Assembly: GCF_000420545.1 (NCBI RefSeq)
Contig: NZ_ATVD01000002.1
Location: 496,001 to 560,000, forward strand
Direction: 5' to 3'
Origin: Arenimonas oryziterrae DSM 21050 = YC6267
Lineage (GTDB): Bacteria; Pseudomonadota; Gammaproteobacteria; Xanthomonadales; Xanthomonadaceae
DNA: 64,000 nt
Shown here: positions 25,238 to 26,951 of the stretch, piece by piece
Position numbering within the stretch: the stretch's first letter is position 1
Layout of the letters: each line of letters opens with the position of its first letter
Program-made: the position numbers and the translations under genes
The notes under the pieces: model-generated
What the model was told of the DNA's origin: nothing
The model's database searches: none
Seen by the model: the letters and a program-made list of their open reading frames with translations, nothing else

Positions 25238-25261
25238 GAAGCCCCGCATCGGCGGGGCTTC
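25238..25261. terminator. Bidirectional terminator between hutI and the bTHX gene
   Basis: GAAGCCCCGC and GCGGGGCTTC form a perfect 10-bp stem with a 4-base loop. The downstream side is T-rich (TTCGTTCG), and AACGAA lies on the other side. It lies between two convergent genes and can serve both. Confidence 0.8.
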
Positions 25262-25284: not shown

Positions 25285-25449
25285 TTACTTGGCGGCAGCC
25301 TTCTTCGCCGGCGCCTTCTTGGCAGCGACGGGCGCCTTCGGGGTGGCAGCGGCCTTGGTCACGACCTTCTTGACGGTGGTGCCACGGGCATTGCCGTAGC
25401 TGGAGATGTTGCGCTTGCCTTTCGCGGTCTTGCGGTCGCCCTTGCCCAT
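25285..25449 (-). CDS. Small ribosomal subunit protein bTHX (Thx)
   Basis: This 54-residue protein begins MGKGDRKTAKGKR and contains SSYGNARG, the core of the short THX proteins that sit in the head of the 30S subunit. The rest (about residues 28-54) is an Ala/Lys/Pro tail with AAKKAPAKKAAAK, as in histone-H1-like tails. AAGGAAA lies 6 bases before the ATG, a strong ribosome binding site. The gene converges on hutI with a shared terminator. The identification rests on the N-terminal motif and the size. Confidence 0.85.
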   Translation of the reverse strand: MGKGDRKTAKGKRNISSYGNARGTTVKKVVTKAAATPKAPVAAKKAPAKKAAAK

Positions 25450-25517: not shown

Positions 25518-25976
25518 TCAGTGGTGGTGGGCGCAGCCCGCGTCGTGCACGTGACCGTGCGTCAGGCGCAGATTGATCAGGTGTGCGACCGCAATCAGCG
25601 TGCCGCCGAAGGTCATCACGACGGCATGGCGCACGACATCCTCGTGCAGCGCCGGCACCAGGATTCCCGCCCAGACGGCGGCCAGGCCCGGTACCAGGAA
25701 GGCCAGCGCGCGATAAACGCGATGGCGCCGATAGCCTTGCCACAGGCTCGCGACCGCGAGCGCGGTGGCGAAAGCGACATACCCCAACTCGATGCCGGAT
25801 GAGGCTAGCCACCCCAGTCCGAGAGCCGGCAACAGAGCGATCGCGAACGGCAGCACCGCGCAATGGACTGCGCAAACGACCGCGCCGGCCGAACCGACGG
25901 AATCGGCCCAGGTCGCCCAGCGCGAGCGGGCGCGCGGCGGCGGGACGGACAGGAGTTTGGGCGGGGCGGACTGCAT
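25518..25976 (-). CDS. MerC-like four-helix membrane protein with His-rich tail
   Basis: This 152-residue protein has four hydrophobic helices (about residues 25-50, 62-80, 89-110 and 116-136). Helix 1 carries CAVHC (C35, C39), the MerC-family metal-binding pair. The C-terminus is rich in histidine (HGHVHDAGCAHHH). MerC proteins carry Hg(II) inward in mer operons, but no merR, merT, merP or merA is nearby. A Zur-type palindrome covers the promoter and zur lies 480 bases upstream, so a zinc-uptake role is my inference. No ribosome binding site is present; the ATG lies 7 bases after the -10, so the mRNA may be leaderless. Confidence 0.8.
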   Translation of the reverse strand: MQSAPPKLLSVPPPRARSRWATWADSVGSAGAVVCAVHCAVLPFAIALLPALGLGWLASSGIELGYVAFATALAVASLWQGYRRHRVYRALAFLVPGLAAVWAGILVPALHEDVVRHAVVMTFGGTLIAVAHLINLRLTHGHVHDAGCAHHH

Positions 25977-25977
25977 T

Positions 25978-25992
25978 TGTAATAATATAACA
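25978..25992. promoter_or_regulatory. Zur-box-like palindrome over the promoter of the MerC-like gene
   Basis: TGTAATAATATAACA is a 7+1+7 inverted repeat with one mismatch. It resembles the proteobacterial Zur consensus TGTTATAnTATAACA. It covers the minus-strand -10 (TATATT, 25984-25989); a -35 TTGCTC lies at 26008-26013 with an 18-base spacer. Zinc-bound Zur at this site would block transcription. The match is by eye. Confidence 0.55.
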
Positions 25993-26375
25993 TTGCGCTC
26001 TATCCGGGAGCAAGCCCGGCCAAGCCGGGCCCGGATCGCCACCCCGCCTCGCCATCGGCGCGTCACGGTTTTCGATGCGACGCGACGAATTGCATACGTC
26101 GACGTACGTGTTTTTTCGTGCACGCCGTCGGCAGACGCGTGCGCACTTGTCAACGTCATCAACGACTATGCGTTCAGCCAGCATGAGCAAATCGCATGGG
26201 AAACTTTTGCACAGGGGCCACACGCCAATCGATCGAACCACGCGATTTCCGACGTCGTTTTCACCAGACGTCATCGCGATGCAACGACGACGTCATTACG
26301 CCCGTCCAGATTAGATAAAGCCGTACCGGCATGCCGGGATACGGAAACAACGACGATCGTCACAGCGATCTTCAA

Positions 26376-26408
26376 GCCGCCGGAGTCCCCACCCGGTGGC
26401 TTTTTTTT
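26376..26408 (+). terminator. Rho-independent terminator with no upstream plus-strand gene
   Basis: GCCGCCGG pairs with CCGGTGGC (one G-U pair) around a 9-base loop, followed by eight T residues. The nearest plus-strand gene, hutI, already ends at another terminator 1.1 kb upstream, so this one should end an unannotated transcript starting within the 480-base gap. Confidence 0.7.
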
Positions 26409-26456: not shown

Positions 26457-26951
26457 CTATCGCGTTGCCGCCGCACAGGCAGCGCAGATGCCGTGGACTT
26501 CGAGCGTCTGCGCGCGCGGGATGAAGCCCAGCTCCCGGGCCTGCGTATCGAGCAGGCCGGTGATGCGCTTGTCTTCGAGTTCGATCGCGTTCTGGCAGTT
26601 GTCGCAGATCAGAAACGGCACCGAGTGCTGCACCTGCGGATGGTGACAACTCACGAACGCGTTGATCGATGCCAAGCGATGGATGAAGCCCTGTTCGAGC
26701 AGGAAATCCAGCGCCCGATACACCGTCGGCGGCGCCACCGATCCCGTTTCTGATTTCATGCGGTCAAGAAGATCGTAGGCCTTGATCGGCTTGCCGGCCG
26801 CCGCGACCAGGCCCAGCACCTGCGCGCGCAACGGTGTCAGACGCAAGCCGCGGGCTTCGCAGGCCTGCTCCACCGCCGACACGAAACCCTCGGCATCGTG
26901 CACGTGATGACCCGGGTCGGTGCAGGCGTGATCGTGCGCGTGCTTGCTCAT
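26457..26951 (-). CDS. zur: Zinc uptake regulator Zur (Fur family)
   Basis: This 164-residue Fur-family repressor has a winged HTH (about residues 30-95, with VAPPTVYRALDFL as recognition region). Zinc sites are suggested by C102/H103/H104 (SCHHPQVQH), C116/C119 (CDNC), H153 and C156/C159 (CAAC). The N-terminus is unusually His-rich (KHAHDHAC, GHHVHD). The pattern fits Zur better than Fur. Zinc-bound Zur represses zinc uptake genes. It lies 31 bases behind gltX on the same strand, and a Zur-like box precedes the MerC-like gene downstream. Confidence 0.88.
   Translation of the reverse strand: MSKHAHDHACTDPGHHVHDAEGFVSAVEQACEARGLRLTPLRAQVLGLVAAAGKPIKAYDLLDRMKSETGSVAPPTVYRALDFLLEQGFIHRLASINAFVSCHHPQVQHSVPFLICDNCQNAIELEDKRITGLLDTQARELGFIPRAQTLEVHGICAACAAATR

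Follow-up and report, generated by a model that had tools for sequence, protein, structure and literature searches.

The locus raises the question of why a gene of a family named for mercury resistance lies beside a zur-like gene with a Zur-type palindrome over its promoter, and what its product does there. The window, which is the whole 64-kb stretch of DNA that was analysed, holds the MerC-like gene on the minus strand at 25518..25976 (ATG at 25976, stop at 25518; 152 codons and a product of 152 amino acids), and this gene is the sole MerC match (E 0.001) of the 3,091,755-base genome. The product scores 84.7 bits against the Pfam MerC family (PF03203; cut-off 27.6), which places it in that family, and only 18.4 bits against the NCBIfam equivalog for mercury MerC (NF033784), for which the cut-off is 140. 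Classical MerC is a small four-helix membrane protein, and an AlphaFold model of the MerC-like protein contains four long helices with a mean pLDDT of 71, which represents moderate confidence. Comparison of this moderate-confidence model by Foldseek and VIA-align returned generic helical bundles only, with no informative match. A search of solved structures gave 0 matches, a PHROGs search gave nothing informative, and Rfam gave a single weak miRNA match far under its gathering score.

The protein carries a CAVHC motif at residues 35-39 (25860-25874, minus strand), and its C-terminus is rich in His and Cys (HGHVHDAGCAHHH). In an alignment of 22 sequences (A1, the window MerC and those of 21 named loci; L024 was left out, as its reading frame breaks off), the invariant positions include C35, H38, C39, H117, H132, N135 and R137, and also H140, H142, H144, D145, C148 and H150. 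The HxHxHD tail is present in 19 of 90 family copies with CxxHC among the MerC matches listed; most of these copies thus lack such a His-rich end. The merA motif and the GMTCxxC motif are absent from every frame of the 64-kb window.

The predicted Zur-type operator is the palindrome TGTAATAATATAACA at 25978..25992, which can be read on either strand and which was assigned from its match in the genome, the published motif and its conservation before homologues. On the strand of the MerC-like gene it reads AATGTTATATTATTACAAATG, and one base separates it from the ATG. The operator contains a -10-like TATATT at 25984..25989 (minus strand), which ends seven bases before the ATG and has a TG one base ahead of it (25992-25991), as in an extended -10. 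A Zur-type palindrome thus overlaps the -10-like box, as is looked for in a Zur-regulated promoter. When the genome was searched with TGTWATANTATWACA at fewer than two mismatches, the single match, with zero mismatches, was the window palindrome; at up to three mismatches there was one match in the window against a mean of 0.09 in shuffles. The 20-base E. coli Zur motif, as quoted in an excerpt from PMC6103462, agrees with the window site at 18 of 20 positions (two mismatches) on both strands. At up to three mismatches this motif found only the two strands of the operator in the window, and shuffles gave a mean of 0.28.

A consensus promoter scan at the MerC-like gene found no -35/-10 pair, and inspection of the sequence before the ATG revealed no Shine-Dalgarno-like stretch. 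Codon 1 is the only start seen: no further ATG, GTG or TTG occurs before the conserved domain, so the message is most naturally read as having a leader of 0-2 bases. From the spacing between the -10 and the ATG, a near-leaderless mRNA is plausible. Among the MerC matches listed, 15 of 82 family copies have their ATG no more than 10 bases after the -10, so the near-leaderless layout is recurrent and not general.

The zur gene (26457..26951, minus strand) ends 480 bases upstream of the MerC-like gene on the same strand and encodes a Fur-family regulator of 164 amino acids (Pfam FUR, 45.8 bits; cut-off 23.1). Its best NCBIfam match is Zur (NF008646) at 135.3 bits, which is under the cut-off of 167, a score reached by none of the 119 family genomes. 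The product is therefore called Zur-like, an assignment that rests on the best match and on context. A zur match is found in 117 of the 119 family genomes. Among the MerC matches listed, 82 of these 117 genomes have zur no more than 6 kb upstream of MerC and in the same orientation, and 16 of the 117 do not have the two genes in this order on a single contig. The original prediction had described a four-helix MerC-like protein with CAVHC and a His-rich tail, the lack of mer genes nearby, a palindrome over TATATT, a -10 seven bases ahead of the ATG with no ribosome binding site, and zur 480 bases upstream; the translation, the Pfam score, the helices of the model, the motif searches in all frames and the positions given above agree with it on every one of these points.

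Conservation of the site was analysed in a family sample of 119 genomes from 54 genera, a family to which Xanthomonas and Stenotrophomonas also belong. A MerC match is present in 119 of the 119 genomes. At the homologous loci taken from named records, the 15-mer was found with at most three mismatches within about 300 bases upstream in 22 of 22 cases, with no mismatch in one, one in nine, two in seven and three in five. The poorer of these loci keep the TGTTATA half, and the other half of the palindrome is loose. Where tandem boxes occur (L006-L008 and L018; G, C and L numbers are our handles for genomes, contigs and loci), the nearer box was taken as representative. The pattern with at most one mismatch identified 67 sites in 56 of 119 family genomes and 31 of 54 genera, and the reversed pattern, used as a control, had matches in 2 of 119 genomes. 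Among the MerC matches listed, 51 of the 67 near-perfect sites are 47-152 bases ahead of a MerC domain. Five others are 3.2-3.4 kb upstream of MerC, and all five stand ahead of a row of porin, ZnuA, ABC-3 and MerC genes. CxxHC was checked in 29 loci fetched around close sites, and 23 contained it; in five of the other six the fetched stretch holds no MerC, and in the sixth (L067) a MerC is present but was not matched by the CxxHC expression.

The remaining 11 of the 67 sites are close Zur-type sites elsewhere or on contigs with no MerC among the matches listed (G110:C46:3945, G001:C23:79434, G065:C1:1651415, G006:C1:2321087, G071:C50:4899, C57:34403 and C127:63376, G098:C7:192893, G118:C3:323547, G064:C1:984172 and G111:C1:835186). 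These sites may mark further Zur targets.

A further 99 MerC copies among the matches listed were scanned with a weight matrix at a threshold of 12 bits within 330 bases. Its training set was the window plus the 22 named loci, and some family genomes are evidently the same assemblies as named loci (for example, G010 and L013), so that training and test overlap in part; the pattern search is free of this overlap. Among the MerC matches listed, a site of at least 12 bits was found before 82 of 90 copies with CxxHC versus 0 of 9 copies without it, and random segments of the same loci reached this score in 2 of 990 cases. Eight of the 90 CxxHC copies listed have no 12-bit site nearby, and three of these eight (in G037, G089 and G013) are further down a row with a site ahead. 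Overall, a 12-bit or close match lies directly upstream of the MerC gene in 113 of 118 genomes examined (MerC matches listed; G094 was outside the examined set), and among the same matches a site precedes MerC in at least one genome of 53 of the 54 genera. In G037, which represents the 54th genus, and in G089 the site is ahead of a longer operon, and G009, G022 and G073 have weaker look-alike sites of 8.7-10.8 bits. The distance from site to start codon varies among relatives. The site is thus kept before orthologues, the second feature looked for in a Zur-regulated promoter. The original prediction had named a lack of such conservation as one finding that would refute it, and the palindrome came through that check in 113 of 118 genomes among the MerC matches listed. 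With a site conserved before the MerC genes of relatives, its claim of Zur control is well supported at the level of sequence comparison, and the MerC-like gene is very probably under Zur regulation.

The difference between copies with and without CxxHC was followed in 154 MerC copies, 99 from the family (MerC matches listed) and 55 from outside it, of which 125 have CxxHC and 29 do not. Among the MerC matches listed, a Zur-type site of at least 12 bits was found at 100 of the 125 CxxHC copies versus 0 of the 29 others (Fisher p ~1e-16), and a merA motif, which we take to be the MerA active-site motif, occurred in the fetched stretch of 0 of 125 versus 20 of 29 (Fisher p ~1e-18); these p values are descriptive, because related genomes are not independent. 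A SPANRRC-like C-terminal end is present in 11 or 12 of the 29 copies without CxxHC, depending on which of two loose expressions is used. The proteins annotated as "MerC mercury resistance" would therefore comprise the MerC of mer operons and a CxxHC group tied to Zur. The presence or absence of CxxHC is a simple sequence rule by which a single Pfam family falls into two kinds that differ in regulation and neighbours, and it could correct many annotations.

Outside the family the link is looser. In a class sample, which includes a few genomes from the family, 79 of 369 genomes have a MerC match. From these matches 60 out-of-family copies were picked, of which all but the five lowest were fetched, giving the 55 analysed; weaker matches and one frame with stops were left out. 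CxxHC is present in 35 of the 55. A site of at least 18 bits lies within 330 bases of 15 of these 35 copies and is absent from 20. Random segments of the out-of-family loci reached 12 bits in 37 of 550 cases and 18 bits in 12 of 550, chance scores that are higher because these loci are AT-rich. Several of the siteless out-of-family CxxHC copies adjoin zur or ZnuA/ABC-3 genes, and 27 of the 35 can be called linked by loose criteria that were set after the data had been seen. A search of plasmids gave one real relative. By these sequence comparisons, the link between MerC and Zur extends past the family, yet is not universal. Within the family sample, the genomes of L095, L096, L110, L126, L137, L146, L149 and L154 carry an additional CxxHC copy, of the CLLHC form, whose own Zur-type site scores 23.8-29.5 bits; in the 400 bases upstream of these copies there is neither a receptor gene nor zur nor an ABC-3 gene.

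The neighbours of the CxxHC copies are also informative. A divergent TonB-dependent receptor gene is the commonest upstream gene (51 of 89 CxxHC copies among the MerC matches listed), and the Zur-type site is placed between MerC and this receptor gene. Among the same matches, the upstream gene is an ABC-3 permease in 9 of 89 copies and zur in 5 of 89, and 24 of 89 copies have none of receptor, ABC-3 permease or zur within 400 bases upstream. In the alternative row found in relatives, the genes are those for a porin, a ZnuA-like protein, an ABC-3 permease and MerC. For six of six receptors tested, the best match was ZnuD (NCBIfam NF038289) at 389-432 bits, with the runner-up at 106-150 bits; all six are under the ZnuD cut-off of 950 and are therefore called ZnuD-like only. 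For example, in Xanthomonas sacchari R1 (NZ_CP010410.1) the receptor gene and a gene annotated as "MerC domain-containing protein" diverge around a site of 24.2 bits, and a THX gene follows MerC. That the box is conserved in relatives, and that it is usually shared with a divergent ZnuD-like gene missing from the window locus, was not part of the original prediction. A tblastn search at the window locus found no receptor remnant between the operator and zur, and a leftover receptor gene there was rejected. A receptor elsewhere in the genome was likewise rejected, as no full-length copy was found and the best match was 44 bits over residues 8-174 of 697. A strong plus-strand terminator-like hairpin with 8 U (26374..26408; fold -22.6 kcal/mol, z -3.73) stands between the operator and zur, in a gap with no evident gene where relatives have the divergent ZnuD-like receptor gene. 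The hairpin is possibly the relic terminator of a lost receptor gene, or it may be the end of a short RNA begun on the divergent side of the operator.

The minus strand carries, 68 bases past the end of the MerC-like gene, a gene of 54 amino acids for a 30S ribosomal protein THX-like product (25285..25449, from translation). The name was taken from the Xanthomonas sacchari record, and the product had no NCBIfam match at E 1e-20. Among the MerC matches listed, 61 of 90 family copies with CxxHC are followed by a THX-like gene in the same orientation, as counted by a start motif that presumably marks such genes in relatives. The order of MerC and then a THX-like gene was also seen at L004-L008, L010-L023, L025 and L275. 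A hairpin scan placed a terminator-like hairpin past the THX-like gene (25238..25261, minus strand). If MerC and THX are co-transcribed, a ribosomal protein would come under Zur. Other ribosomal proteins are under Zur control, and the THX case would agree with them.

Other zinc importers are scarce in the family. Searches of the 119 genomes gave ABC-3 permeases in 15 and ZIP proteins in 48 (above the cut-off in 43), and both recovered E. coli as a positive control. Neither type was found in 60 of the 119, the congeners G042, G076 and G103 among them; the count covers ABC-3 and ZIP, and other importers, such as Nramp or ABC-2-type systems (ZnuGHI), may be present. Of these 60 genomes, 58 have a zur match, the exceptions being G080 and G094. 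The window's genome has porin-like, ZnuA-like and ABC-3 permease genes together on another contig (C4:54820-58022, or L029:6821-10023), and no ABC ATPase gene was seen by eye beside them among the listed ORFs. Given these ZnuA-like and ABC-3 genes, the MerC-like protein need not be the only zinc route of this genome. As a second Zur target the cluster was rejected, as no Zur site was found near it and the best matrix score in 19 kb was 5.2. In relatives, L140, L142 and L120 among them, the same porin-ZnuA-ABC-3 row runs together with MerC and has a Zur site. The sole other match in the window's genome to the operator pattern with at most two mismatches is the palindrome TGTATTAATGTAACA at C1:129844-129858 (L003:1501-1515), which precedes a TrpR-like gene (TrpR was read from the translation). 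With two mismatches, 14.6 bits and this gene behind it, the site was rejected as a Zur target, and it is perhaps the TrpR-like regulator's own operator.

Known Zur regulons offer several comparisons. The Caulobacter regulon, as described in excerpts from PMC4176598, includes ZrpW, a putative transporter with six transmembrane domains, TonB receptors and the ABC-2-type ZnuGHI. ZrpW resembles the MerC-like protein in being a small, Zur-repressed, putative membrane transporter beside TonB receptors; however, it has six transmembrane domains and is not called MerC in those excerpts, and the comparison is by description alone (PMC4176598). In Xanthomonas campestris, of the same bacterial family, excerpts from secondary accounts name zinc uptake genes and two TonB receptors as targets of Zur repression (PMC6103462, PMC10298282) and state that XC3788, a gene similar to ZnuC, is Zur-repressed (PMC10298282) and that znuABC is present, as listed in a review (PMC6103462). 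The repression of zinc uptake genes and TonB receptors is the likeness to our locus; the difference is that MerC is not named in the excerpts of these secondary accounts (PMC6103462, PMC10298282). MerC was also not found by a term search of the available text of the Zur reviews PMC6103462 and PMC8000910. A link between MerC and Zur was not found in searches of an open-access library, judged mostly by titles and the openings of abstracts, and priority is not claimed. The receptor that shares the operator in relatives is similar to ZnuD, the TonB-dependent receptor of zinc piracy, in its best match (six of six, 389-432 bits) and differs in scoring under the cut-off of 950, in being paired with MerC and in being absent from the window locus.

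The reading that we prefer is that a CxxHC-type MerC protein repressed by Zur most likely helps to bring zinc, not mercury, into the cell. With ample zinc, zinc-loaded Zur would sit on the palindrome over the extended -10 and block RNA polymerase, and a site over the -10 box fits such repression. When zinc is short, Zur would leave the palindrome and the MerC-like gene would be transcribed, probably almost without a leader. The four-helix protein would then reside in the inner membrane and carry Zn(II) from the periplasm to the cytoplasm. The Cys-x-x-His-Cys of the first helix would form the entry ligand set for zinc, and the conserved His of the last helix and the His/Cys-rich tail could supply further ligands. 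In many relatives one operator would also serve the divergent ZnuD-like outer-membrane receptor, giving a zinc route from the outer to the inner membrane. The MerC family has a history of metal import. Expression at zinc shortage, the pairing with a ZnuD-like receptor and this history together point to zinc import across the inner membrane. Zinc import by the MerC-like protein itself is probable, though less firmly so than its regulation; it is read from the regulation, the neighbours and the scarcity of other importers. The zinc-import function claimed in the original prediction thus finds support in context (the ZnuD-like receptor, the ZnuA/ABC-3 neighbours, zur and few other importers).

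The main rival to zinc import by the MerC-like protein is an accessory role, in which the protein is Zur-controlled and acts as a membrane zinc binder that passes zinc from the ZnuD-like receptor to another importer, or tunes that importer. MerC ends the porin-ZnuA-ABC-3 rows in 9 of 89 copies (MerC matches listed), where importer parts are already there, and a CxxHC site with His/Cys-rich tails suits metal binding. However, every one of the 119 genomes has a MerC match, also the 60 in which neither ABC-3 nor ZIP was found, 58 of which have zur, and classical MerC proteins are themselves metal carriers. For these reasons an accessory role is considered unlikely, if the most serious of the alternatives.

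Far less probable is that the site belongs to another Fur-family protein, such as Fur or Mur, and that the gene responds to iron or manganese. Fur-family operators are alike, and zur was named here from a score under the curated cut-off. Against this, the site fits the published Zur motif, zur adjoins MerC in many genomes, the divergent gene is ZnuD-like, and ZnuA and ABC-3 genes adjoin MerC in the other arrangements.

A transporter of the classical type for mercury (or cadmium), near zur by accident, would account for the Pfam MerC score above its cut-off, and the window protein shares with mer-operon MerC (PF03203; NF033784) the Pfam family and the form of a small four-helix membrane protein, the helices here coming from the model. 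It differs in having CxxHC, which the 29 other copies lack, a Zur operator and no mer neighbours. The score at the mercury equivalog (18.4 versus 140 bits), the lack of mer motifs in the window, and the finding that among the MerC matches listed CxxHC copies are never near merA (0 of 125 versus 20 of 29 others) and are the only copies with the site led us to drop this identity, which is now very improbable. The least probable explanation, that the palindrome is a plain AT-rich -10 region with no operator function, gains something from its overlap with the -10 box and from the half that is loose in many relatives, and was dropped in view of the shuffles (0.09 matches), the random segments (12 bits in 2 of 990), the retention of the site before homologues in 53 of 54 genera at varied distances from the start codon, and its absence from all 29 MerC copies without CxxHC (MerC matches listed for both counts).

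Zinc acquisition at starvation is seen mainly as the work of ZnuABC and ZIP. The role proposed for the MerC-like protein, Zur-repressed zinc import at the inner membrane, is that of ZnuABC (ABC-3, under Zur), and the two differ in that no ATPase or binding protein belongs to the MerC protein and that an ABC-3 permease was found in just 15 of 119 genomes. A broader proposal is put forward tentatively, with its chances a little short of even: CxxHC MerC proteins may form a class apart, of small inner-membrane importers of zinc that work free of ATP and under Zur control. Together with a divergent ZnuD-like receptor on a shared operator, they would be the chief route for zinc at starvation, in place of ZnuABC, across most of the family, and they would recur in other Gammaproteobacteria. 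The MerC-like protein is a concrete candidate for the missing inner-membrane zinc step in a family that has zur and few ABC-3 permeases, and its proposed role could account for the finding of a "mercury resistance" gene in all 119 family genomes.
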